Shown in pieces: positions 12,188 through 24,991 of a stretch of 62,022 bases of DNA (position 1 is the stretch's first letter; each line of letters starts with the position of its first letter). This DNA comes from a bacterium (GTDB lineage: Bacteria; Pseudomonadota; Alphaproteobacteria; Ferrovibrionales; Ferrovibrionaceae). Below the pieces are notes generated by a model. It was not told the DNA's origin. It searched no databases and worked only from the letters and a program-made list of their open reading frames with translations. The stretch lies in contig JALHMN010000002.1 of the NCBI GenBank assembly GCA_022844005.1, forward strand, positions 1 through 62,022, read 5' to 3'. The position numbers and the translations under genes were made by a program.

Positions 12188-13108
12188 ATGCTTGGACCTC
12201 TTGCCCGCGGCATCGCCGCCGTGATCGCCCTCGTCCTGTCGGCCTCGGCCTCGTTCGCGCAGGATGCCGTCCGGGTCGGTTCGAAGATCGATACCGAGGG
12301 TGCACTTCTCGGCAGCATGATCATCCAGGCGCTGGAGGCAAAAGGCGTCAGGACGGCGAACAAGCTGCAGCTGGGGCCGACCAAGATCGTGCGCGGCGCC
12401 CTCCTCGCCGGCGAGATCGACATCTATCCCGAATACACCGGCAACGGCGCCTTCTTCTTTTCGATCGACACCGACCCCGTATGGAAGGACGCCGCCGGCG
12501 GCTACCAGAAGGTGAAAGCCCTGGACGCCGAGCGGAACAAGCTGATCTGGCTGCAGCCGGCCGCGGCGAACAACACCTGGGCCATCGCGGTGCGCCGGGA
12601 CCTGGCGAGCGCAAACAAGCTCGCGTCGATGGAGGACTTCGCCAAATGGGTATCCGGCGGCGGCAAGGTGAAGATCGCGGCATCGGCGGAATTCGTCGAG
12701 AGCCCGGCGGCGCTGCCGTCCTTCGAGAAGACCTACGGCTTCAAGCTGAAGCAGGATCAGATCCTGGTCCTCGCCGGCGGCAATACCGCCGCGACCGAAC
12801 GCGCCGCCGCCGAGCAGACATCCGGCGTCAACACCGCGATGGCCTATGGAACCGACGGCGCGCTCGCGGCGCTCGGCCTCACCGTCATGGAGGATTCCAA
12901 GGGCGCGCAGATCGTCTACAACCCGTCGCCGGTGGTGCGGGCGGCGGCTTTGGAGAAGCATCCGCAGATCCGCGCGGCGCTGGAGCCCGTATTCGCTTCG
13001 CTCGACCTCGCGACCCTGCAGCGGCTGAACGCCGCCATCGCGGTCGAGGGCCAGGAGGCGAAGCGCGTGGCTGAGGGATACCTGAAGGAAAAGGGTTTCC
13101 TGAAATAG
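12188..13108 (+). CDS. osmF: Osmoprotectant ABC transporter substrate-binding protein (OsmF/YehZ-like)
   Basis: This is the periplasmic binding protein for glycine betaine-type osmoprotectants, 306 residues. A Sec signal peptide ends at about residue 24 (ASASFA before QDAV). The mature part is an OpuAC-type domain with VRVGSKIDTEGALLGSMI, the IDIYPEYTGNG hinge motif typical of this family, and the closing AVEGQEAKRVAEGYL segment. It is the first gene of four in the order binding protein, permease, ATPase, permease, which matches yehZYXW of E. coli. An inverted repeat overlaps its ribosome-binding site. Aromatic cage residues cannot be confirmed without a structure, so the exact ligand is uncertain. 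Confidence 0.92.
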   Translation: MLGPLARGIAAVIALVLSASASFAQDAVRVGSKIDTEGALLGSMIIQALEAKGVRTANKLQLGPTKIVRGALLAGEIDIYPEYTGNGAFFFSIDTDPVWKDAAGGYQKVKALDAERNKLIWLQPAAANNTWAIAVRRDLASANKLASMEDFAKWVSGGGKVKIAASAEFVESPAALPSFEKTYGFKLKQDQILVLAGGNTAATERAAAEQTSGVNTAMAYGTDGALAALGLTVMEDSKGAQIVYNPSPVVRAAALEKHPQIRAALEPVFASLDLATLQRLNAAIAVEGQEAKRVAEGYLKEKGFLK

Positions 13109-13142
13109 CCTTCGCCGATCGAAGGCGGATCGCGGCCGGCCG

Positions 13143-14333
13143 ATGAGCGGCGCCGAACAGGGCGCGGCGGCGGGCGGGTTCAGGGTCCGCAATCTTGTCC
13201 TGCTGACGCTGTTCCTGGCGGGTGCCGCCGGCGGCGGATCACTTGCCTTCGTCGCGCATGCGCCGAACCGGCTGCTGTCCGGCGCGCCGGTCCGCCTGGG
13301 CGCGCTGCCCGGCGAAGCACTGCTGGTCCTGTCCCTGTTGGCGGCCCTGCTGCTGGGCGGCGCGTTCCTGACGCCGCGCCGTGCCGGCCATTGGGTATTG
13401 GGCGCCGCGGCCGCCGCCTTCGTCCTTGTGCTTTGCACCCTCGCGGGTGTGGAAGCCTCGCGCTTCGCCGCCGGAGCCCCGCCGGCAGCGCGGACGTCGC
13501 TCGGCGCCGGATTCTGGATCATGGCGCTCTGCGGCTGCCTTGCGATGATGGACGCCATGCATCGCCTGGCCCTCGCGCCCGCTCTCCGGATGATGGGCGC
13601 GCTGATGCTGGCGGGCGGGGTCGCCGGGCTCGGCGCCATGGGCGCGCTGGACGACCTGTCGATCGCCAAGGAGTATGCCAACCGCCGGGAGGCTCTGGGC
13701 GAAGCCCTGGCGCAGCATGTCGGCATCGTCCTGGCGGCGCTGCTGCCGACGGTGCTGATCGGCCTGCCGCTCGGCCTCGTCGCGGCCCGGCGGCGAGCTT
13801 TCGCAGCCGGCCTGTTTCCGGCGCTCAATCTCATACAGACGATTCCATCGATCGCGCTCTTCGCCATGCTGATGGCGCCCCTCGCGGGCCTGGCGGAGCG
13901 GTTTCCCGTGCTCAAGGCCGCCGGGATCGGCGGGATCGGCGCCGCGCCCGCGGTCATCGCGCTGATCCTCTATTCCCTGCTGCCGATCGCGAGGAACGTC
14001 GCCGAGGGGATCGCGGGCGTGCCGGCGGGCGCCCGTCACGCGGCGGTCGGGATGGGGATGACCCCAGGGCAGGTTTTCGGACGGGTGGAACTGCCGCTGG
14101 CGCTGCCCGTCGTCCTTTCCGGCCTGCGCATCGTCATCGTGCAGGCCATCGGCCTCGCGGCCGTGGCCGCGCTGATCGGGGCCGGCGGCCTCGGCGCCAT
14201 CATGTTCCAGGGCCTGTTCGCCAACGCGCTGGACACCGTGGTGCTCGGTACCGTGCCGATCATTCTTCTGGCGCTGGCGGCCGACGGCTCCCTCAGGCTG
14301 CTGACCGGCTATGCCGAAAGGGTGCGGCGATGA
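13143..14333 (+). CDS. yehY: Osmoprotectant ABC transporter permease (YehY-like)
   Basis: This is the larger inner-membrane permease of the transporter, 396 residues (YehY is of similar length). The N-terminal half holds several hydrophobic helices at about residues 18-40, 55-80, 85-108, 120-145 and 150-170. The C-terminal half (residues about 195-390) is a typical BPD permease domain with the coupling-helix EAA-type segment RHAAVGMGMTPGQVFGRVELPLALPVV. It starts 34 bases after osmF. Its stop overlaps the start of the ATPase gene (ATGA), so expression is coupled. Confidence 0.9.
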   Translation: MSGAEQGAAAGGFRVRNLVLLTLFLAGAAGGGSLAFVAHAPNRLLSGAPVRLGALPGEALLVLSLLAALLLGGAFLTPRRAGHWVLGAAAAAFVLVLCTLAGVEASRFAAGAPPAARTSLGAGFWIMALCGCLAMMDAMHRLALAPALRMMGALMLAGGVAGLGAMGALDDLSIAKEYANRREALGEALAQHVGIVLAALLPTVLIGLPLGLVAARRRAFAAGLFPALNLIQTIPSIALFAMLMAPLAGLAERFPVLKAAGIGGIGAAPAVIALILYSLLPIARNVAEGIAGVPAGARHAAVGMGMTPGQVFGRVELPLALPVVLSGLRIVIVQAIGLAAVAALIGAGGLGAIMFQGLFANALDTVVLGTVPIILLALAADGSLRLLTGYAERVRR

Positions 14334-15256
14334 TCGCCTTCGAGCGTGCCGGCAAGCGCTACGGTGGCCAGACGGCGGTGGAGGACATCTCCCTCACCAT
14401 CGAAGCCGGTGAGTTCTTCGTCGTCATCGGGCCTTCCGGCTCCGGAAAGTCCACGCTTCTCATGATGATCAACCGGATGGTGCCACATTCGGCGGGCAGC
14501 ATCCGGGTCGGCGGCCAGGACATCCTCTCCTTCCGCCCCGAAATGCTGCGCCGGCGCATGGGCTACGTCATCCAGTCGGTCGGTCTGTTCCCGCATTGGA
14601 CGGTGGAGCGGAACATCGGCGCCGTCCCCGAACTTCTGGACTGGCCGCAGGCCAGGATTCGCGATCGTGCCGACGAGCTTCTGGCCCTGCTGAACCTCGA
14701 TCCCGGACGCTTCCGCTCGAAATATCCCCATCAGCTTTCCGGCGGCGAGCAACAGCGGGTGGGCGTCGCCCGGGCGCTGGCGGCCCGGCCGGATGTCCTG
14801 CTGATGGACGAGCCCTTCGGCGCGCTCGACCCCATCACGCGAACCGCGCTGCAGCAGGAAATCCATCGCATCCACCGCGAGAGCGGCACGACGGTCGTGT
14901 TCGTGACCCATGACATGGACGAGGCGCTGGGCCTCGCCTCCCGCATCGCCGTCCTGGATCGCGGCCGGCTCGTTCAGCTGGGCACCCCACTCGAGCTTCT
15001 CGCCGCGCCGGCGAACGGGCTGGTCCGCGACCTGATCGGGCAGGAGGAACATGGATTGAGGATGCTGGCGGTCCAGACGGTGGCGAGCCGCCTGCGCACG
15101 GGTGAAACCGCCCCGGGCGAACCCATCGCCGCTTCCGCGACGCTGCGCCAGGCTCTCTCCCGCATGGTGTCGGAATCCGCCGACCGGCTGGGGGTGAGCG
15201 ATGCCGAAGGCCGGCCCATGGGCGCAATCGCGATGTCCGATCTGCTGCGCCGATGA
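14330..15256 (+). CDS. yehX: Osmoprotectant ABC transporter ATP-binding protein (YehX-like)
   Basis: The ATPase energises osmoprotectant import. The 308-residue product carries Walker A GPSGSGKST, a Q-loop (VIQSVGLFPHWTV), the ABC signature LSGGEQQRVGVARAL, Walker B VLLMDEPFGALDP and the switch His in VFVTHDMDEA. After about residue 240 a short CBS-like tail (ATLRQALSRMVSESADRLGV) may sense ionic strength, as in OpuA-type ATPases. Both ends overlap neighbouring permease genes by ATGA, showing tight translational coupling within the operon. Confidence 0.94.
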   Translation: MIAFERAGKRYGGQTAVEDISLTIEAGEFFVVIGPSGSGKSTLLMMINRMVPHSAGSIRVGGQDILSFRPEMLRRRMGYVIQSVGLFPHWTVERNIGAVPELLDWPQARIRDRADELLALLNLDPGRFRSKYPHQLSGGEQQRVGVARALAARPDVLLMDEPFGALDPITRTALQQEIHRIHRESGTTVVFVTHDMDEALGLASRIAVLDRGRLVQLGTPLELLAAPANGLVRDLIGQEEHGLRMLAVQTVASRLRTGETAPGEPIAASATLRQALSRMVSESADRLGVSDAEGRPMGAIAMSDLLRR

Positions 15257-16005
15257 GAACGCGGGCGCATGCCCTGGCAGCCGAACCCCTGTTCTGGACC
15301 ACGCTCGGGTTTGTCGTCCTATTGCTGGCGATGCCGGCGACCAAGCCCGCTTTCGCCGCCCTCTTTCCCGAACTGGACCGGCCGTTCTACGAGCAGGATT
15401 CCTACTTCCGGCTGGCGCTGGCGCATCTTGGCATCGTGGCGGCCTCGAGCATCGCCGCCGTGGCAGTCGCCCTTTCCGCCGGGATCTTCGTGACCCGGCC
15501 CGCGGGGGTGGAGTTCCGGGCCATCACCGAATCCGTGGTCGCGCTCGGGCAGACTTTTCCTCCCGTCGCCGTCCTCGCCCTGGCGGTTCCGCTGACCGGG
15601 TTCGGCACCACCCCGGCGCTGATCGCGCTCACCCTCTACGGGATGCTGCCGATCCTGCAGAACACGTTGGCAGGTCTCGCCTCCGTGCCGGGGGACGTGC
15701 GCGATGCCGGGCGGGGCATGGGCATGACCGGCGCGCAGATCCTTCTCCGGCTCGAACTCCCCCTCGCCGCCCCGGTGATCCTCGCCGGTATCAGGACCTC
15801 GGTGGTGATCAACGTGGGCACGGCGACGATCGCCTCGACGGTCGGCGCCAGGACGCTCGGACTGCCGATCATCGTCGGGCTGAACGGCTCCAACCTCGCC
15901 TATGTGCTGCAGGGCGCGGCTCTGGTCGGCCTGCTGGGCGTGCTGCTGGACCTCGCCTTCGCCCGCGGCCTGCGGGGCTTGCGGCAGTGGCGGCCGCCCG
16001 CCTGA
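15253..16005 (+). CDS. yehW: Osmoprotectant ABC transporter permease (YehW-like)
   Basis: This is the second, smaller permease of the transporter (250 residues). An N-terminal hydrophobic segment (residues about 14-32) precedes a BPD permease domain with five further helices. The EAA-type cytoplasmic loop reads DVRDAGRGMGMTGAQILLRLELPLAAPVI. TATIASTVGARTLGLPIIVGLNG is the usual late motif of OpuC-type permeases. The start overlaps the ATPase stop (ATGA). It completes a full yehZYXW-type operon. No separate promoter was seen inside the operon. Confidence 0.9.
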   Translation: MRTRAHALAAEPLFWTTLGFVVLLLAMPATKPAFAALFPELDRPFYEQDSYFRLALAHLGIVAASSIAAVAVALSAGIFVTRPAGVEFRAITESVVALGQTFPPVAVLALAVPLTGFGTTPALIALTLYGMLPILQNTLAGLASVPGDVRDAGRGMGMTGAQILLRLELPLAAPVILAGIRTSVVINVGTATIASTVGARTLGLPIIVGLNGSNLAYVLQGAALVGLLGVLLDLAFARGLRGLRQWRPPA

Positions 16006-16075
16006 CCGGGCCGGTTCAAGCGGACTGCAAAATCCTCTAGGGTCCGGCGCAGTCAGTCGAGGAGCCTTGGGTCGC

Positions 16076-16726
16076 ATGAAGCTCGCGGTCGTTCCGGTCA
16101 CCGCCTTTCAGCAGAACTGTTCGATCTTCTGGGACGAGGAAACACGCGTCGGCGCGGTGGTCGACCCCGGCGGAGACCTCGACCGCCTGATGCAGGTGGT
16201 GGAGGAGAACGACATCAGGCTGGAGAAGATCCTGATCACCCACGGCCACCTGGATCATGCCGGCGGCACGGCCGACCTCGCCGAGCAGCTCAGCCTGCCG
16301 ATCGAGGGACCGCATCGCGACGATCAGTTCTGGATCGATCGCATGCAGGCTTCGGCCGAACGCTATGGCTTCCCCCCGGTGCGCCCCTTCACGCCCGACC
16401 GCTGGCTCGAGCACGGCGACAAGGTGAGCGTGGGCCCCTTCACCTTCGACGTCGTCCATTGCCCGGGGCATACCCCGGGGCATGTGGTCTTCGTCAACGA
16501 TGCGGCGCGTTTCGCCTTCGTAGGCGATGTGCTGTTCCGCAGTTCCATCGGCCGCACGGATTTCCCAAAGGGGAATTACGCCGACCTGATCAGTTCCATC
16601 CGCAACCGCCTGTTTCCGCTCGGCGACGACATCCAGTTCGTGCCGGGTCACGGCCAGCTTTCGACTTTCGGCTGGGAGCGCAAGACCAACCCCTTCGTCA
16701 GCGACCTCGCGGTGGGCGAAGCCTGA
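16076..16726 (+). CDS. Metallo-beta-lactamase-fold hydrolase, glyoxalase II-like (YcbL type)
   Basis: A 216-residue binuclear-metal hydrolase resembling short glyoxalase II proteins such as YcbL, which cleave S-lactoylglutathione or related thioesters. It has the metal motif THGHLDHAGG, then HCPGHTPGHVVFV, the bridging Asp in FVGDVLFRSSIGRTDFP, and the final PGHGQLSTFGWE His. It lacks the C-terminal glutathione-binding helices of full-length GloB, which is typical of this short group. It lies 70 bases downstream of the transporter operon in the same direction and could be transcribed from its own start. Confidence 0.9.
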   Translation: MKLAVVPVTAFQQNCSIFWDEETRVGAVVDPGGDLDRLMQVVEENDIRLEKILITHGHLDHAGGTADLAEQLSLPIEGPHRDDQFWIDRMQASAERYGFPPVRPFTPDRWLEHGDKVSVGPFTFDVVHCPGHTPGHVVFVNDAARFAFVGDVLFRSSIGRTDFPKGNYADLISSIRNRLFPLGDDIQFVPGHGQLSTFGWERKTNPFVSDLAVGEA

Positions 16727-16861
16727 GGCGGGAAGCCCGGCGCTGTGACCTCCGGCACAGGGGACGCGGGCGCGTCCCTGCAATAGTCTGTCCCCGGAAC
16801 CGTCGCGCCCAGCCAGATCATTGACCCCAGGGCCTGATCGGAAGCAGAGGAGGCCAGCGCC

Positions 16862-18109
16862 GTGAGCGACCTGCTCGGGATCCTGTTCGGATCCTCAGTG
16901 TTCATGCCGCACGGATACTGCCTGCTGTGGCAGACCGACCTGCTGGCGACGCATGCAATCAGCGATCTTGCGATCGCCTCCGCGTATTTCTCCATCCCGG
17001 CGGCGCTCTACTGGTTCACGCAGCAACGTCCGGACCTGGAATTCCGCTCACTCGCGCTTCTGTTCACAGCGTTCATTTTCGGCTGCGGCCTCACCCATCT
17101 CGCCGGCCTGGCGACCCTCTGGTACCCCTGGTATGGCCTGCAGGCGCTGGTCAAGGTCGGCACCGCCGGGGTTTCGGTGCTGACCGCCGTCGTCCTGTGG
17201 CGGGCGCTGCCGCAGGCGTTGCTGATGCCTTCACCGTTGCAGCTGCGGGCCAAGAACCAGGAACTGGAAACGGAGATCGCGCGGCGTCGCGCCGTCGAGG
17301 CCGAGCTTCGCGCCATGCATGCCGATCTCGAGGTCCGGGTGCAGGAACGCACCCAGGCCCTGGCCAAGGCGATGCGCCTCGCCGATGCCGCGCGCGAGCG
17401 GGCGGAGAAGGCCGATCGCGCCAAATCCACCTTCGTCGCCCAGATGAGCCACGACCTGCGCACACCGCTGAATTCCATTATCGGGTTCTCCGATGTGCTG
17501 CGCACCGGGATCCTGGGCCCGATCGCCCAGGCACGGCAGGCGGAGTACGTCGAGTACATCAATCTGTCGGGCCATCACCTGCTGGAACTGATCGACGACC
17601 TGCTCGACCTCGCCCGTATCGAGGCCGGGCGGGTGGAGATCCGCCCCGAGCCGATCGAGATCGCCCCCTTCATCGAGCATCGCCTGCGCATGGTCGCGCC
17701 GAAGGCGGCGGAAAAGGCGATGACGCTGAGCGACGACGCCACCGCCGCCCCGCCCGTCATCGCCGCCGACCGCAAGGTATTGCGGCGGATCATCGACAAC
17801 CTCCTCTCCAACGCGGTGAAATACACGCCACCGGGCGGGCGGGTGAACGTTCGGGTCTGGGCCGACCACGCGGCCACGCATATCGAGGTCGCCGACAGCG
17901 GCCCGGGCATTCCCGAACACGAGGTGCCGCGCATGTTCGCCGCCTTCGGGCGCAGCCGCGAAGCCGCGCGCAAGCACGAAGGCACCGGCCTCGGCCTCAC
18001 CATCGTGAAGTCGCTGACCGAACTGCACGGGGGCCGTATCGAGCTGAAGGCCGCTTCGCTGGGTGGTCTTGCCGCGGTGGTGTCGCTGCCGCGCGAGCCG
18101 GCGGGCTAG
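16862..18109 (+). CDS. Sensor histidine kinase with ethylene-receptor-type (ETR1-like) membrane domain
   Basis: The 415-residue protein has three N-terminal membrane helices (residues about 31-53, 63-86 and 95-116) that match the ethylene-binding domain of plant ETR1 and cyanobacterial homologues. Asp35, Tyr42, Ile72, Cys75 and His79 align at a constant offset of ten with ETR1 Asp25, Tyr32, Ile62, Cys65 and His69. Cys65 and His69 are the copper ligands in ETR1. A coiled coil (about 127-187) follows. HisKA has the phospho-acceptor His197 (MSHDLRTPLNS), and HATPase_c has DNLLSNAVKYTPPGG, the DSGPGIP G1 box and GTGLGLTIV. The GTG start at 16862 follows GGAGG. No response regulator is adjacent, so its partner is elsewhere. 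Confidence 0.87.
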   Translation: MSDLLGILFGSSVFMPHGYCLLWQTDLLATHAISDLAIASAYFSIPAALYWFTQQRPDLEFRSLALLFTAFIFGCGLTHLAGLATLWYPWYGLQALVKVGTAGVSVLTAVVLWRALPQALLMPSPLQLRAKNQELETEIARRRAVEAELRAMHADLEVRVQERTQALAKAMRLADAARERAEKADRAKSTFVAQMSHDLRTPLNSIIGFSDVLRTGILGPIAQARQAEYVEYINLSGHHLLELIDDLLDLARIEAGRVEIRPEPIEIAPFIEHRLRMVAPKAAEKAMTLSDDATAAPPVIAADRKVLRRIIDNLLSNAVKYTPPGGRVNVRVWADHAATHIEVADSGPGIPEHEVPRMFAAFGRSREAARKHEGTGLGLTIVKSLTELHGGRIELKAASLGGLAAVVSLPREPAG

Positions 18110-18966
18110 ACCCGGTGCGCCGCGAGGTGCTGGGCCAGCAGGCGGGTGACGGCGCCGGCGTCCTGGTCGGTGATGAAATGGCCGATCCCCGGTAGCACCT
18201 CGAAGCGATACTGGGCCTCCACCTGCGCGTGCGTGCCCTCCGCCGCCAGCGGACCCACCGATTCGTCGGCATCGCCCCAGAGGTAGAGCACGGGGACCCG
18301 GATGCGGCCGAGCGGGACCCTGAGCCCCTGCTGCGCCCGGTACCAGGCGAGCGCGGCCTCCATGGCCGGGGCGCTGCCGAGAACGCCGACATAGTCTTCA
18401 ATCGCCGCGGGCGGCACATGCGCGGCGGCGAGGTTGCGGCGCAAGCGGCGGGCGTCGTCGGCCAACAGCAGCCCCGCCGTCGCCGGGTCGAGGAAGGCGC
18501 GATGATGGCGCGAGCGATGTTTCTGGTCGCCATCAGGCGCCTGCAGCGCGGCGGCGAAGGCGACGGGGTGCGGCCGCGACAGGACGCTCAGGCTGGCGAG
18601 ACGGTCGGCATGTCGATCGCCGACCCCCCAGGCCACCTGCCCGCCCCAGTCGTGCCCGACCAGATGAAAGCGGCCCTCCTCGTGCCCGACGGCAGCCGCG
18701 AGATCCAGCACATCGGCGACCAGCCGGTCGTAGTGGTAATTCGCGAGATCGGCCGGGTCGGGACGGGCACCGGGCGAATAGCCCCGCTGGTCCGGCGCCA
18801 GCACGCGATAGCCGGCGGCGGCCAGCGCCGGCACCTGCTCGCGCCAGGTGTGGCGTGACTGCGGAAAGCCGTGCAGCAGCACCACCAGCGGCCCTTCGGG
18901 CGGGCCTTCCAGCCAGGCATCGAAGACGAGATCGCTTCGCGTCGTCAGCCGTTCGAGCGTCGGCAT
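18106..18966 (-). CDS. Alpha/beta hydrolase (epoxide hydrolase/haloalkane dehalogenase-like)
   Basis: This is a soluble 286-residue alpha/beta hydrolase. It has the oxyanion motif LLHGFPQSRHTW and the nucleophile elbow VGHDWGGQVAW with Asp as nucleophile. DQRGYSPGARP is the family segment, and GIGHFITDQ supplies the catalytic His. Asp as nucleophile and the HGFP motif point to epoxide hydrolase- or dehalogenase-type chemistry. The start ATG 18966 has GGGGGAGAG before it and lies at the natural start of the fold. A longer in-frame ORF up to 19296 is low-complexity and crosses a terminator. Its stop overlaps the kinase stop in a convergent arrangement. Confidence 0.88.
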   Translation of the reverse strand: MPTLERLTTRSDLVFDAWLEGPPEGPLVVLLHGFPQSRHTWREQVPALAAAGYRVLAPDQRGYSPGARPDPADLANYHYDRLVADVLDLAAAVGHEEGRFHLVGHDWGGQVAWGVGDRHADRLASLSVLSRPHPVAFAAALQAPDGDQKHRSRHHRAFLDPATAGLLLADDARRLRRNLAAAHVPPAAIEDYVGVLGSAPAMEAALAWYRAQQGLRVPLGRIRVPVLYLWGDADESVGPLAAEGTHAQVEAQYRFEVLPGIGHFITDQDAGAVTRLLAQHLAAHRV

Positions 18967-19060
18967 GCTCTCCCCCCCAGGCGTCTTCCTCGGCGCCGAC
19001 TCTAGCCCCGCCGGTGCCGGCGCGCCGGACATTTCCGCATCTGCCGGCCGTGAGCGCCCT

Positions 19061-20124: not shown

Positions 20125-20214
20125 GGAGGGGTGGCCGAGTGGTTTAAGGCACCGGTCTTGAAAACCGGCGTGGGTGCAAGCTCACCGTGGGTTCGAATCC
20201 CACCCCCTCCGCCA
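20125..20214 (+). tRNA. tRNA-Ser (anticodon TGA)
   Basis: The 5' half GGAGGGG pairs with CCCCTCC near the 3' end to form the acceptor stem. The D-arm GGCCGAGTGG is typical of Ser/Leu. The anticodon loop CTTGAAA carries TGA. A long variable arm (GTGGGTGCAAGCTCAC) is present, as expected for serine, and the T-arm contains GGTTCGAATCC. CCA (20212-20214) is encoded. The last 14 bases are repeated at 25159-25172 and form the attachment site of the integrated element. Confidence 0.97.
20201..20214 (+). repeat. attL: 14-bp direct repeat in the tRNA-Ser 3' end
   Basis: CACCCCCTCCGCCA at the tRNA 3' end is identical to 25159-25172. It is the tRNA-side junction of the integrated element. The other copy is in attR, beyond the integrase gene. 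Confidence 0.8.
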
Positions 20215-20507
20215 TAAAAGCGCAGTTTTCTTGGGATTTTTTCGTCATCCTGGCGGCATCCCCTTAACTATCCCCTTTATCGAAGCGCGAACGCCAGCGA
20301 ACGGTCGCCCCTGCCCCATATCCGCGCGAGTATCCGCGCCTGCGCGTACTGGTCGGGAAACTGCCCGCGCCCGCCCGGCGCTGGCGACCAGTCAGTTGCC
20401 TAAACCGCAGCGGCTATAGGGTTTTGATCGGCATGCTCGCACGCCTGCCGCGCTCCCTTTTTAGGGGGCGGCATAATTCGCCGCCTTTCGCGCTCCAGCA
20501 TTGGAAC
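20215..20507. other. Element left end, no gene
   Basis: I see no protein gene here. The stretch carries TCCCCT repeats (20258-20280), and a hairpin GGCGGC/GCCGCC at 20467-20472 and 20480-20485 lying just past the 3' end of the cargo gene. Base composition is more AT-rich than the chromosome around it. Confidence 0.45.
20258..20280 (+). repeat. TCCCCT repeats near attL (possible integrase arm sites)
   Basis: ATCCCCTTAAC (20258-20268) is followed by TATCCCCTTTAT (20269-20280), with the TCCCCT cores 12 bases apart. The same core in the same orientation occurs twice next to the integrase start at the other end of the element. Paired short repeats at both ends fit arm-type binding sites of a tyrosine integrase. 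Confidence 0.45.
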
Positions 20508-21131
20508 CTATAGGTCTTGCTCGTACGGATCAGTCCATGCCCATGCCGGAGCTGCCGGTAGCCGGACCGAGTTCCACACCGATATCGACGTGATGGATAT
20601 CGAAGGCCCGTACCCTTCTGCATCGAGCTTCTTCAACGCACCCGCTGCGAAAGCGGGATCAGTCGCGTCGGTTCTGAAGTGCATATGAAGGAATTGGTGC
20701 CCGGATAGAGCCGCGTTCCTAATCGATTCCACTAGGTGATTGCGGGTCGAACGGTTGCTATCCAGCGCAAAGCATTTCAACATGAGAGGCCGTAGCCAAC
20801 GTGGCCGTTTGGCGTCAGCGGTGTACGGTTCGAAGTGGGTGAGGTGGCAGCGACCCACTCCCTCGGATCCAAAAAGTTCATCTACAAATTCGACTGAGGC
20901 AAAGACCCTTCGGTCAAATGCACCGTCTTCATGCACGACCCCACGCGCCTTGAATTCTTCAAAGGTAGGGTTGTGCTCATCCTCGGTCGAGAGTTGGTGG
21001 CCGAACGCGAGATGGGCGAGGGCCAGTGAGAATTGACCCCGGCTATAGACCTTGTCGACGAGCCGCTCGTATCTGCCGCGCGCAAAGGCTTCGGACTCCG
21101 CCGTCTTCCCCTTTGATTTCCTCCAGAACAT
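20508..21131 (-). CDS. Hypothetical cargo protein of the tRNA-Ser element (207 aa)
   Basis: I do not recognise this protein. It starts MFWRKSKGKTAESEAF and has no signal peptide or membrane helix. It contains a mixed alpha/beta middle (RGQFSLALAHLAFGHQLSTE and HLVESIRNAALSG) and ends in a Trp/Pro-rich tail (APAWAWTDPYEQDL). GGAG lies about ten bases before the ATG. Codon use is visibly less GC-rich than in the flanking chromosome. It is the tRNA-proximal, last gene of the element, a place where integrative elements often carry accessory or defence genes. Any defence role is inference. Confidence 0.65.
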   Translation of the reverse strand: MFWRKSKGKTAESEAFARGRYERLVDKVYSRGQFSLALAHLAFGHQLSTEDEHNPTFEEFKARGVVHEDGAFDRRVFASVEFVDELFGSEGVGRCHLTHFEPYTADAKRPRWLRPLMLKCFALDSNRSTRNHLVESIRNAALSGHQFLHMHFRTDATDPAFAAGALKKLDAEGYGPSISITSISVWNSVRLPAAPAWAWTDPYEQDL

Positions 21132-21291
21132 TGCATCCTCTCCCCTAGGATCGAACCGGCATAGTTGACGCCCTCACTGTTTTCCCGCTGTTAGCAGCGG
21201 CTGCCGCCTCCCTCAGTGCGGCTGTTCTCAGCCTACATCAGCCCCCTTGTTCTGAAGGCCCTAGAGAGCCCCCTGGCTTGGTTATAAAGGC

Positions 21292-21446
21292 GGTTCTATG
21301 GTGGAACGAGGAAGCCCCCGGAAAGGCCCGTGACGGGTTCTGGAATGGAACCGTCAGCCATCCCTCGGTTCTGTAGCGGTACCGTCAGCGCGCCCCATCG
21401 TTCCGCCTGAGAACCGATTTCTGTTTTTCCGTTCCACCGCAGAACC
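21292..21446. repeat. Five iteron-like 16-bp repeats
   Basis: Copies of GGTTCTNNRRYGGWAC lie at 21292-21307, 21336-21351 and 21367-21382 on plus, and at 21400-21415 and 21431-21446 on minus. Each begins GGTTCT, and four of five end GGAAC, so each unit is an imperfect palindrome. Start-to-start spacings are 44, 31, 33 and 31 bases, close to three or four helical turns, placing the sites on one DNA face. A degenerate further copy begins near 21248. Copies 3-5 lie inside the 3' end of the HTH gene. The arrangement suggests binding sites for that protein, as an origin or operator. Confidence 0.7.
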
Positions 21447-21860
21447 GAGAGAGCCGGCCCGCGAGGGTGGCGATGATGCCTGCCACCGCTTCCAATCGTT
21501 CGTCGCCATCGAGCCGTTGACGCCTCGGTCGGTGACCGCGTACTCGGTGGCGAGCCGCCCGTACCACTGGCCCGGCTTCACGACCCGGACGAACCCGCGC
21601 TCGACCAGTTCGGCCAGCGCCCGCGCAACCGTTGCCTTGCCCAGCCCGAGCAGCCGGGCGCCCTCATCCATCGAGAGCGAGAGCTTGCCGTTGTTGCCGC
21701 CATCGTACCGGCAGCGCAATTCCACCCAGACCTTTACGGCCGCCCCCGAGAGCGAGCGCCAGGCATCCGACCGCGCCATCGGGTAGGGGAGCGGGGCGAA
21801 TTGCTCGCCCGCGCTCCGCCCGTTGGGCAGCGCCTTCCGGCTACGCTGCTTCTTCATCAT
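21354..21860 (-). CDS. Helix-turn-helix protein, replication-initiator-like (168 aa)
   Basis: The N-terminus is basic (MMKKQRSRKALPNGR). The core resembles winged-helix replication or partition regulators of small alphaproteobacterial elements: AWRSLSGAAVKVWVELRCRYDGGNNG, followed by a recognisable HTH, SMDEGARLLGLGKATVARALAELVERGFV. The last 35 residues are low-complexity and are encoded across the iteron-like repeats. Its start overlaps the stop of the PC4-like gene, so it is the last member of a four-gene coupled operon. It is the best candidate to bind the nearby repeats. No polymerase or helicase domain is visible, so an initiator role is unproven. Confidence 0.7.
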   Translation of the reverse strand: MMKKQRSRKALPNGRSAGEQFAPLPYPMARSDAWRSLSGAAVKVWVELRCRYDGGNNGKLSLSMDEGARLLGLGKATVARALAELVERGFVRVVKPGQWYGRLATEYAVTDRGVNGSMATNDWKRWQASSPPSRAGSLGSAVERKNRNRFSGGTMGRADGTATEPRDG

Positions 21861-22095
21861 CGAGCAGGCCCTGGCGCCGCGCTTCCTGCTCGGCATCGGC
21901 AACCGCCTTCGCCAGCGCCGGCAGCAGTGCCGCCTTGCAGGTAAGTCCCTTCCGCGTCGGCTGCGGATCTACCCCGCCGCCCGGATCGGCGAAGGTGCGG
22001 ATATCCACTAGCCGATGGCCTTTGTAGGTCGTCAGGCTGACGCGGATCGATTCTCGCGCGTTTCTGGCGATGGTCGCGACGATGGTGTCTGTCAT
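21841..22095 (-). CDS. PC4/p15-type single-strand DNA-binding protein (84 aa)
   Basis: The sequence IRVSLTTYKGHRLVDIRTF followed by PTRKGLTCKAALLPALAKAV matches the bacterial form of the transcriptional coactivator p15 (PC4) fold. That fold is a small ssDNA-binding beta-sheet with a dimerising helix. The protein has the usual length of these short bacterial members. Its start overlaps the stop of the winged-helix-like gene (ATGA), and its own 3' end overlaps the HTH gene. Within an iteron-bearing element it may assist strand opening or replication; that is inference. Confidence 0.75.
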   Translation of the reverse strand: MTDTIVATIARNARESIRVSLTTYKGHRLVDIRTFADPGGGVDPQPTRKGLTCKAALLPALAKAVADAEQEARRQGLLDDEEAA

Positions 22096-22391
22096 GCCGG
22101 CACCATCGCGCTGCTCTCCACGACGCGCAGACGCGACCGCAGCACGTACCGAGCATGGCGACCAGGGAATGGCCCCTGGTGCGGTTCATGCACCGTCTCG
22201 ATGGCGAGCCCAAGCTGGCGCAGATTGAACACGTAGCCCGACCAGCGCGGGCCAGGATGATCGATCGGCGTACAACCCGCCTCGCCTGCCTGGATCAGTT
22301 CCAGCAGCGCCCAGGCGTCCCGCCCATCGGCGCGGAGACGCATCGGCGGATCGGCGTCGAGGATGTCGGTGATGATGTAGGCGCGCCTCAT
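22092..22391 (-). CDS. Winged-helix-like small protein (99 aa)
   Basis: The product MRRAYIITDILDADPPMRLR... contains DGRDAWALLELIQAGEAGCTPIDHPGPRWSGYVFNLRQLGLAI, a pattern shared by short winged-helix proteins of alphaproteobacterial islands (the Gly-Tyr-x-Phe-x-Leu segment before the recognition helix). ATG 22391 overlaps the stop of the 62-residue gene upstream (ATGA), and its stop overlaps the PC4-like start. A longer ORF to 22589 was rejected because it would run through the neighbouring coding frame. Function is probably DNA-binding regulation. Confidence 0.65.
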   Translation of the reverse strand: MRRAYIITDILDADPPMRLRADGRDAWALLELIQAGEAGCTPIDHPGPRWSGYVFNLRQLGLAIETVHEPHQGPFPGRHARYVLRSRLRVVESSAMVPA

Positions 22392-22576
22392 CGGCCAACC
22401 TCCCCGAACAGTTCCGCCGCCGTGACCGATGCCACAATCGGCATCAGGCCGAAGCGCCGTGCGAGCCGACGCGCGGGCCAGGACATGCGGTCGCGCCGGT
22501 CCTGTTCGGCGCGCCATTGGAATAGGTCGAGTTGAAGGCTCGCGCTGGCGCGCGGCCCCGCCTTCCGGTAATTCAT
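22388..22576 (-). CDS. Small element protein (62 aa, unrecognised)
   Basis: First gene of the coupled run in the element. The product is basic in its middle (WRAEQDRRDRMSWPARRLARRFGLMP) and ends with a short helix (VASVTAAELFGEVGR). The ending FGLMPIVASVTAAELFGEV resembles small proteins commonly seen beside PC4-like genes in alphaproteobacterial islands, but I cannot name it. ATG 22576 is chosen because it gives translational coupling with the downstream gene; an upstream ATG at 22621 is also in frame. A hairpin (22606-22629) lies just upstream. Confidence 0.55.
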   Translation of the reverse strand: MNYRKAGPRASASLQLDLFQWRAEQDRRDRMSWPARRLARRFGLMPIVASVTAAELFGEVGR

Positions 22577-22605
22577 GGGTGCTTTCCATCGAGTAGTTGC
22601 TGAAG

Positions 22606-22629
22606 CCTCCGCCGGTGACACGGCGGAGG
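22606..22629. terminator. Hairpin between the AlpA-like gene and the coupled operon
   Basis: CCTCCGCCG (22606-22614) and CGGCGGAGG (22621-22629) form a perfect 9-base stem with a 6-base loop. A T-rich tract follows on the plus strand only. It may separate transcription of the alpA-like gene from the downstream operon, or stop antisense reads. Confidence 0.5.
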
Positions 22630-22639
22630 TTTCGTCTTT

Positions 22640-22861
22640 TCAGGCTGCCTCGCCGCGCTTGGGCAGGCGTTCGGCGAGCGCCGCGATGCTGGCGGTATCG
22701 ACCAGCGTGCGGTTGCCCAGGCGCCGGGCTTCAAGGTCGCCGGCCGTGAGCAGTTCATAGAACTTGGTCAGGCCGATTCCGAGGATGCGCGCAGCCTCAC
22801 GCGGGGACACGAATAGCGGCGTGCCGGTGTCGCGCAGCCGCTGGAATGCAGAACTTGTCAC
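22640..22861 (-). CDS. AlpA/excisionase-like HTH regulator (73 aa)
   Basis: This is a small MerR-like/AlpA HTH protein. LFVSPREAARILGIGLTKFYELLTAGDLEARRLGNRTLVDTASIAALAERLP is the typical layout of element-borne excisionase/AlpA proteins, in which the HTH begins with SPREAARILGI. GTG 22861 is preferred because GGAGC stands seven bases before it, although an ATG at 22906 is also in frame. Such proteins direct excision or activate integrase transcription. It is placed between the integrase side and the replication-like module. Confidence 0.8.
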   Translation of the reverse strand: MTSSAFQRLRDTGTPLFVSPREAARILGIGLTKFYELLTAGDLEARRLGNRTLVDTASIAALAERLPKRGEAA

Positions 22862-22955
22862 GGGGTGCTCCGTTCTGTGGCGATGCCCCACGTTTTCGTG
22901 GCGCAACGGAGCCCCTATTTGCTATCGCGCTCGGCGCCTGTCGCCTGACATGAAA

Positions 22956-23615
22956 TCAGGCCCCCTTGTCACCCCTGCCTTTGTCTGCCTTGCGCTTACC
23001 TGCGCGCCTAGAAATTGCCGGCGCAGTGCGGCCTGCTTCTCTGTGACGAGCGCCTGCCTTTCGCATTCCCTCCGATAGGCGTTGGCCGTGCTCCGCATCG
23101 CTGGCGTTGGGGTAAAAATCTCGGGGTGTCACCCACGGCAAGCGCTGTAGCCACCTGAGTACGGTTCGCTCATGCGCGCCGAACTCTTCTTCGACAGTTT
23201 TCACCGGCCGGGCGTCGTCGATTAGACCCTCTCGGGCGGCGCGTATGTAAGCGACCGCAATCCCTTTGTCCGTGTTTTCTTGTGGCCCCGGTTCAGGTCG
23301 GCCTCTGCTCTGTGTCAGTTGGCGGATAGGCTCGGGCAACTGCCCGGCAACGATGTAGTCGATCTGGTTTGCGATGAGGTGGGCCAGCTGTATCGGCAGG
23401 CTCTCAGATGGGCCATTCTTCTCCACCCAGTTCGCGGGACGGCAATAGGCTCTCAGCACCCCACTGGCCGTGGCGAAGGCATGTCGAACTAGCGTCTCAG
23501 ACGGCTGGTTGCCTTTGGCTAACTCAGCGTCCCATGCGACAGCAGCTTTTCTCCACCACTCCCACGCATCGGCGACTGTGTATGGCTCAAGGGGTCCATC
23601 GATTTTGGAAGGCAT
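22956..23615 (-). CDS. Hypothetical HTH-like element protein (219 aa)
   Basis: The N-terminal part (MPSKIDGPLEPYTVADAWEWW...) is a Trp-rich helical region. A possible HTH lies at about residues 139-157 (VKTVEEEFGAHERTVLRWLQR). The last 40 residues are Lys/Arg-rich (RRAGKRKADKGRGDKGA) and suit nucleic-acid binding. It lies between integrase and alpA-like genes on the same strand. I do not recognise a named family. An ATG four codons upstream (23627) is an alternative start. Confidence 0.6.
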   Translation of the reverse strand: MPSKIDGPLEPYTVADAWEWWRKAAVAWDAELAKGNQPSETLVRHAFATASGVLRAYCRPANWVEKNGPSESLPIQLAHLIANQIDYIVAGQLPEPIRQLTQSRGRPEPGPQENTDKGIAVAYIRAAREGLIDDARPVKTVEEEFGAHERTVLRWLQRLPWVTPRDFYPNASDAEHGQRLSEGMRKAGARHREAGRTAPAISRRAGKRKADKGRGDKGA

Positions 23616-23710
23616 CTCGCCCCGCATGGCGCCCGCAGTTGTTCGCGATGGGGCAGCGGGTGCGGTTCCCGCGTTCGGCTGGCCGGCCTAGCCCCACCAC
23701 GATGATGCTA

Positions 23711-24991
23711 TCACGCTGGCGACGTTGCGTGCCCCGCCCGCGCCCGACGCTCCGCCAGACCCGCCACGGGCGCGACCTTGGACGCGCCGAACGTTGCCCA
23801 GTCGTCCATCAGCTTCCGCCTTTTGGTGAACAGGTCGCCGCGCGCATAGCTCTGTTCGACTTTGTCCCCGACGCGATGGGCCAGCGCCGTCTCGACAACC
23901 TCGCGGGCGTGAGGCGTCGTCTCTCCTGCCCAGTCGCGAAAAGTGCTGCGGAAGCCATGCGCCGTCAGGTCGTCGCGCCCCATGCGCCGGAGCAGCATGA
24001 GCAGCGCCATCGTGCTGAGGGGCTTCCCTTCCTTCCGGCTGGGGAACACATAGCCGTCATCACTGCGACGGAACGGCAGGACCGATTTGAGCAGCGCCAC
24101 GGCTGCGCCAGAGAGCGGTATACGATGTTCCCGGCCCGCCTTCATCCGTTCGGCCGGCACCGTCCACACGGCGCTCTCTAGGTCGATTTCGGGCCAGCGG
24201 GCGAACAGGGTTTCGCTGGTGCGCGTGGCGCAGAGGATGGTTAGTTCCAGCGCCCGCGCCGACAGCCCTTCCTGCGCCCGCAGTGCCGCCATGAAGTCGG
24301 GGATGTCCTGCCACGGCAGAGCGGCATGATGCACCACGGCATTGGTCCGGCTGCGCTTCGGGAACACCTTGTCCAGATGGCCGCGCCACCGCGCCGGGTT
24401 CTCGCCTTCCCGCCATCCCTGGACCTTGGCGTAGTCCAGCACCGCCTCGATGCGCCCGCGCAGCCGGGATGCCGTCTCGGTCTTGTCGTGCCAGATGGGC
24501 GTGAGCGCCGCCGTGACATGCTCGGTGCGGATGCTTCCCACCGGCAGCGCGCCCAGGTGCGGCCCGGCATAGACCCGCAGAGTCATTTCCCACTGCGAAC
24601 GATGCTTGGCGTTCCGCCAGCCCTTGTCATGCGCCCCGGTGTAGAGCTTCGCCGCCTGATCGAAGGTGACGGCCGCCCGTGCTGCTTCCTGCTCGGCTGC
24701 TGCCTTCGCCTTCTTGGTCGCCTCGCGCGCGTCCAGCGGATCAATGCCGGCTTTCAGCTGCCGCTTAAGGTCGCCCGCAGCATCACGCGCATGGGCCAAG
24801 GATACCGCCCCGGTCCCCGCCGCCGCACCCAGGCCCATCTCGCGCATCTTCCGGCCGATGGTGTAGCGGAACAGCCAGAACCGCGCCTCCGCGCTCCGCA
24901 CGAGCAGATAGAGCCCGCCGCCGTCGCCATACCGGCCGGGCTTGGCCGTCTTGACCTTCGCCGCCGTCAGACCCGCCGCCTTCCGAGGCAT
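23711..24991 (-). CDS. Tyrosine integrase (DUF4102/P4-type)
   Basis: This is a site-specific recombinase of 426 residues, the usual length of P4-like integrases. It has an N-terminal DUF4102 arm-binding domain (GRYGDGGGLYLLVR, and later WLFRYTIGRKMREMGLG). A SAM-like core-binding domain covers about 100-190. The catalytic domain has Arg in LCATRTSETLFARW, the HGFRSTFRDW box and the Tyr in KVEQSYARGDLFTKRR. The start 24991 lies 168 bases from attR, with two CGTCCCCTAA repeats immediately upstream. Its position and the tRNA repeats show that it inserted the element. The gene appears intact. Confidence 0.93.
   Translation of the reverse strand: MPRKAAGLTAAKVKTAKPGRYGDGGGLYLLVRSAEARFWLFRYTIGRKMREMGLGAAAGTGAVSLAHARDAAGDLKRQLKAGIDPLDAREATKKAKAAAEQEAARAAVTFDQAAKLYTGAHDKGWRNAKHRSQWEMTLRVYAGPHLGALPVGSIRTEHVTAALTPIWHDKTETASRLRGRIEAVLDYAKVQGWREGENPARWRGHLDKVFPKRSRTNAVVHHAALPWQDIPDFMAALRAQEGLSARALELTILCATRTSETLFARWPEIDLESAVWTVPAERMKAGREHRIPLSGAAVALLKSVLPFRRSDDGYVFPSRKEGKPLSTMALLMLLRRMGRDDLTAHGFRSTFRDWAGETTPHAREVVETALAHRVGDKVEQSYARGDLFTKRRKLMDDWATFGASKVAPVAGLAERRARAGHATSPA

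Follow-up and report, generated by a model that had tools for sequence, protein, structure and literature searches.

A candidate ethylene-receptor-type sensor histidine kinase of short, PAS-less form in a non-photosynthetic alphaproteobacterium

The gene at 16862..18109 of the window, by which we mean the whole 62,022-nucleotide contig analyzed here, probably encodes a bacterial histidine kinase of the ethylene-receptor type, with a sensor that would detect ethylene in a Cu(I)-dependent manner. G+C content at the three codon positions of the open reading frame is 0.70, 0.46, and 0.87, in a window of 66% G+C, a pattern indicating a real gene. A single copy of the kinase gene is present in the source assembly, which is 73% complete. 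The gene and its parts are laid out as follows.

16848..16853, + strand: Shine-Dalgarno-like AGGAGG, read from the sequence, 8 nt 5' of the GTG start
16862..18109, + strand: ethylene-receptor-type sensor histidine kinase gene, an ORF of 415 aa with a GTG start and Pfam matches to ETR1_N, HisKA, and HATPase_c
16907..16921, + strand: PHGxC motif (P16, H17, G18, C20) before helix 1, conserved in bacterial homologues; its His is absent from ETR1
16934..17026, + strand: transmembrane helix 1 (predicted; residues 25-55), bearing D35, Y42, I45, and P46 (AlphaFold2, local pLDDT ~62-75)
17042..17122, + strand: transmembrane helix 2 (predicted; residues 61-87), bearing I72 as well as C75 and H79, the expected Cu(I) ligands (model and alignment)
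17132..17224, + strand: transmembrane helix 3 (predicted; residues 91-121), bearing K98, which corresponds to ETR1 K91 (model and alignment)
17234..17419, + strand: helical linker, residues 125-186, running straight into HisKA (single helix 125-215 in the model)
17420..17629, + strand: HisKA dimerization/phosphoacceptor domain, residues 187-256, phosphoacceptor H197 (Pfam E = 4.4e-20; motif)
17768..18097, + strand: HATPase_c catalytic domain, residues 303-412, with N, G1, and G2 boxes (Pfam E = 5.8e-28; motifs)

The sensor matches Pfam ETR1_N (PF25487) at residues 27-120 with a score of 115.3 bits (cut-off, 27; E = 1.6e-33), which rules out chance residue matches to ETR1. The alignment reference was the N-terminal sequence of Arabidopsis ETR1, with which the window sensor is identical at 36 of 91 sensor positions; the individual binding residues of ETR1 are D25, Y32, I35, P36, I62, C65, and H69. 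The sequence-only reading had placed D35, Y42, I72, C75, and H79 opposite ETR1 D25, Y32, I62, C65, and H69 at a constant offset of +10, and the alignment reproduced all five pairs; I45 and P46 also correspond to ETR1 I35 and P36 at +10. K98 in helix 3 aligns with ETR1 K91 at another offset, because the loop between helices 2 and 3 is shorter than in ETR1. Since I45, P46, and K98 match as well, the five residues first listed understate how complete the site is. All seven ETR1 ethylene-binding residues are present (D35, Y42, I45, P46, I72, C75, and H79), and it is the requirement for these seven in ETR1 that serves as the criterion for ethylene binding (PMC11819568). Judged by its sequence, the protein belongs to the class of bacterial ethylene receptors, and our analysis makes ethylene binding by it likely.

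Upstream of helix 1, the bacterial proteins differ from ETR1 in carrying the PHGxC motif, the Cys of which aligns with an N-terminal Cys of ETR1. Among 49 bacterial homologues whose D/C/H site is intact, 98% keep H17 and C20, and the motif is present in 48 of 50 sensors with an intact site versus 4 of 11 with a degenerate one. We considered whether the motif forms a second metal site linked to the copper site and rejected the idea: degenerate sensors lose other conserved positions about as often, so the association of PHGxC with the intact site is not specific.

The AlphaFold2 model, built on an alignment three sequences deep, is of modest confidence (mean pLDDT, 64; pTM, 0.32). It contains long helices at residues 25-55, 61-87, and 91-121, a continuous helix at 125-215, and an alpha/beta catalytic domain. 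The best solved matches in a fold search with the model were the cytoplasmic parts of histidine kinases (HK853, DivL, and others), and no solved structure matching the sensor by sequence was found. A modeling study of ETR1 likewise had no usable template; it placed C65 and H69 in the dimer interface, with one Cu(I) per monomer (PMC6586836). The kinase core had been described as intact, and its motifs bear this out at the sequence level: H197 lies in SHDLRTP, the N box spans residues 312-323, G1 345-351, and G2 374-379, and both HisKA and HATPase_c score above their cut-offs. No Pfam domain, and hence neither PAS nor GAF, was found between ETR1_N and HisKA.

By analogy with the studied relatives, from which dimerization, copper and ethylene binding, the direction of signaling, and the phosphorelay are all taken here, the protein would act as a homodimeric inner-membrane sensor histidine kinase. 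Its three transmembrane helices would hold Cu(I) via C75 and H79, with D35 setting their position, and ethylene would bind to that Cu(I). Helix 3 and the continuous helical linker would then relay the change to H197 of HisKA and so modulate autophosphorylation and subsequent transfer to a response regulator encoded elsewhere.

The genes around the kinase are the following.

12188-16002, + strand, same direction as the kinase gene: OpuAC-type ABC transporter set, upstream
16073-16723, + strand, same direction as the kinase gene: metallo-beta-lactamase-fold hydrolase, upstream
18106-18990, convergent with the kinase gene: alpha/beta hydrolase, downstream

Response-regulator matches number 53 in the genome and 0 on the 62-kb contig, and a separate profile search of the window found none either; the partner is presumably encoded elsewhere in the genome. 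A response regulator lies close to the homologue in Novosphingobium ES2-1 (as annotated) and at the Azospirillum brasilense locus. An adjacent response regulator is usual in some bacterial ethylene receptors and is not a defining requirement. Further along the window, at 20125-24991, a tRNA-Ser (TGA) gene precedes a run of minus-strand genes, some of which encode helix-turn-helix domains, and a tyrosine-type phage integrase (23711-24991). The region has the look of an element integrated next to the tRNA gene; no obvious attachment repeat turned up in a quick search.

Bacterial ethylene receptors are an established class, and the domain is said to be encoded by many proteobacteria and cyanobacteria (PMC7700396). 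The nearest precedent is AzoEtr1 of A. brasilense, for which ethylene binding was shown by experiment, again in a non-photosynthetic host, and which alters biofilm formation and root colonization (PMC11819568). Like the window protein, AzoEtr1 joins an N-terminal three-helix ETR1-type sensor to a histidine kinase, and the two share even the residue numbers D35, C75, H79, and K98; the AzoEtr1 variants D35A and C75A were made as predicted nonbinders (PMC11819568). AzoEtr1, however, is longer (525 aa), includes a PAS domain, and has a response-regulator gene immediately downstream, whereas the window protein, of 415 aa, has no PAS domain, and its 62-kb contig has no response regulator. SynEtr1 (slr1212) of Synechocystis also couples an ETR1-type sensor to a histidine kinase (PMC11819568, PMC7700396), but it is bifunctional, responding to light and ethylene in a phototroph, while the window protein has no further sensor domain. 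Arabidopsis ETR1 shares the seven ethylene-binding residues and the helix-3 lysine; it differs in having GAF and receiver domains and in signaling via CTR1, the window protein consisting of sensor, linker, and kinase only.

It is conceivable that the Cu(I) site is intact and the physiological signal is something other than ethylene, such as a different small olefin, the availability of copper, or a redox cue sensed through Cu(I). What the seven residues specify is a Cu(I) site and not the ligand it meets in vivo, and the homologues come from varied bacteria. Nor did we find a link to plants or to ethylene metabolism: the best ACC-deaminase-like match in the genome falls below the family cut-off, which removes ACC deaminase as a route to ethylene and leaves the plant association suggested by the sequence-only reading without support. 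Nevertheless, SynEtr1 and AzoEtr1, the two bacterial proteins with this site that have been studied well, both bind ethylene and respond to it (PMC11819568), and we regard a different signal as unlikely. The source organism had been called non-photosynthetic, in agreement with the absence of a reaction-centre L/M gene from both its genome (73% complete) and the same-genus genome (100% complete). The interest attached to ethylene sensing in such a host holds in part: a receptor-type kinase with a complete predicted site is there, but it is not new, given the AzoEtr1 precedent and the frequency of the domain in the class.

Of 385 genomes sampled across the class, 28 carry ETR1_N (~7%, roughly 1 in 14), as do 29 of 398 across the phylum (~7%) and 2 of 18 genomes of the family, the same 18 that represent the order as sampled. 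It also occurs in 18 plasmid records, including those of Azospirillum, Rhizobium, Novosphingobium, and cyanobacteria. A. brasilense sensors are ~47% identical to that of the window. When the window sensor was aligned with eleven others from bacteria, to which its identity is 44-50%, 22 columns proved invariant, including D35, Y42, I45, P46, I72, C75, H79, and K98. Across the 64 rows compared, window and ETR1 included, all seven residues and K98 are kept in 41; D, C, and H are kept in 49 of 59 bacterial rows. Natural changes of the metal ligands do occur, with Cys replaced by Gly in L031 (genome G369) and His by Arg in both L065 and L066. On plasmid p1 of A. brasilense MTCC4038 (L034:3980-4603), the sensor frame stops after 207 aa, compared with the 525 aa reported for AzoEtr1 of strain Sp7, which could reflect a strain frameshift or a sequencing error.

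The only same-genus relative, G003 (100% complete), encodes one such kinase (L038:8890-10122, minus strand) with the same three-domain order and an ETR1_N match of 83.6 bits (Pfam). Its sensor retains D35, H79, and K98 and carries the changes Y42 to C, I45 to T, P46 to A, I72 to M, and C75 to T, the last at the Cys ligand. Its kinase core is the closest found to that of the window protein (54-55% identity; next best, 42-48%), and the two kinases group with good support (97/96) in a small kinase tree. The sensors are only 40% identical, below many sensors of other families, and a sensor-domain tree lacked the resolution to place either member of the genus. The gene neighbors of the two kinases differ; the hydrolase neighboring the window kinase is 78% identical in G003 and lies on another contig than the G003 kinase, so shared gene order is not established. 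Either the G003 sensor diverged fast or the two kinases are not strict orthologues. A hybrid histidine kinase lies directly downstream of the G003 gene, and two more REC-bearing histidine kinases are nearby.

Absence of the residues from orthologues had been named as grounds for giving up the ethylene reading. Cys, Tyr, Pro, and both Ile are indeed lost in the sole same-genus relative, while most homologues of other lineages keep the residues. Since the Cys ligand is lost in G003, ethylene sensing is no stable trait of the genus, and the case for a conserved ethylene response across it is weakened. One could go further and suppose that the sensor is only a structural membrane anchor in this lineage, drifting, with a kinase that is constitutive or follows another cue; five of the seven residues have changed in G003, while no kinase core found comes closer than its own to that of the window protein (55%). 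Yet the source genome keeps all seven residues and K98 despite only ~45-50% sensor identity to other bacterial sensors, which suggests that the site is under purifying selection, and we think a mere anchor very unlikely. A split of the sensor within the genus, with one species holding a complete ethylene site and its relative a kinase with a replaced copper ligand, is a tentative idea to which we assign a rather low probability. If it were true, comparing the two proteins would be a natural way to ask whether a sensor of the ETR1 type can be shifted to a signal that needs no copper.

For the window protein, an ethylene-sensing kinase remains the preferred reading. What is new is small: the PAS-less form, the 62-kb contig without a response regulator, the occurrence in 2 of 18 genomes of the order, and the degenerate same-genus sensor. 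The picture of who can sense ethylene is unchanged, many proteobacteria being in it already. The gene adds one more candidate to the ethylene sensors of non-photosynthetic bacteria, and it does so for an order where the domain occurs in just 2 of 18 genomes sampled. Being short and without PAS, the protein would be an uncomplicated subject for binding and kinase assays, and the degenerate sensor of the same genus provides a natural comparison for it.
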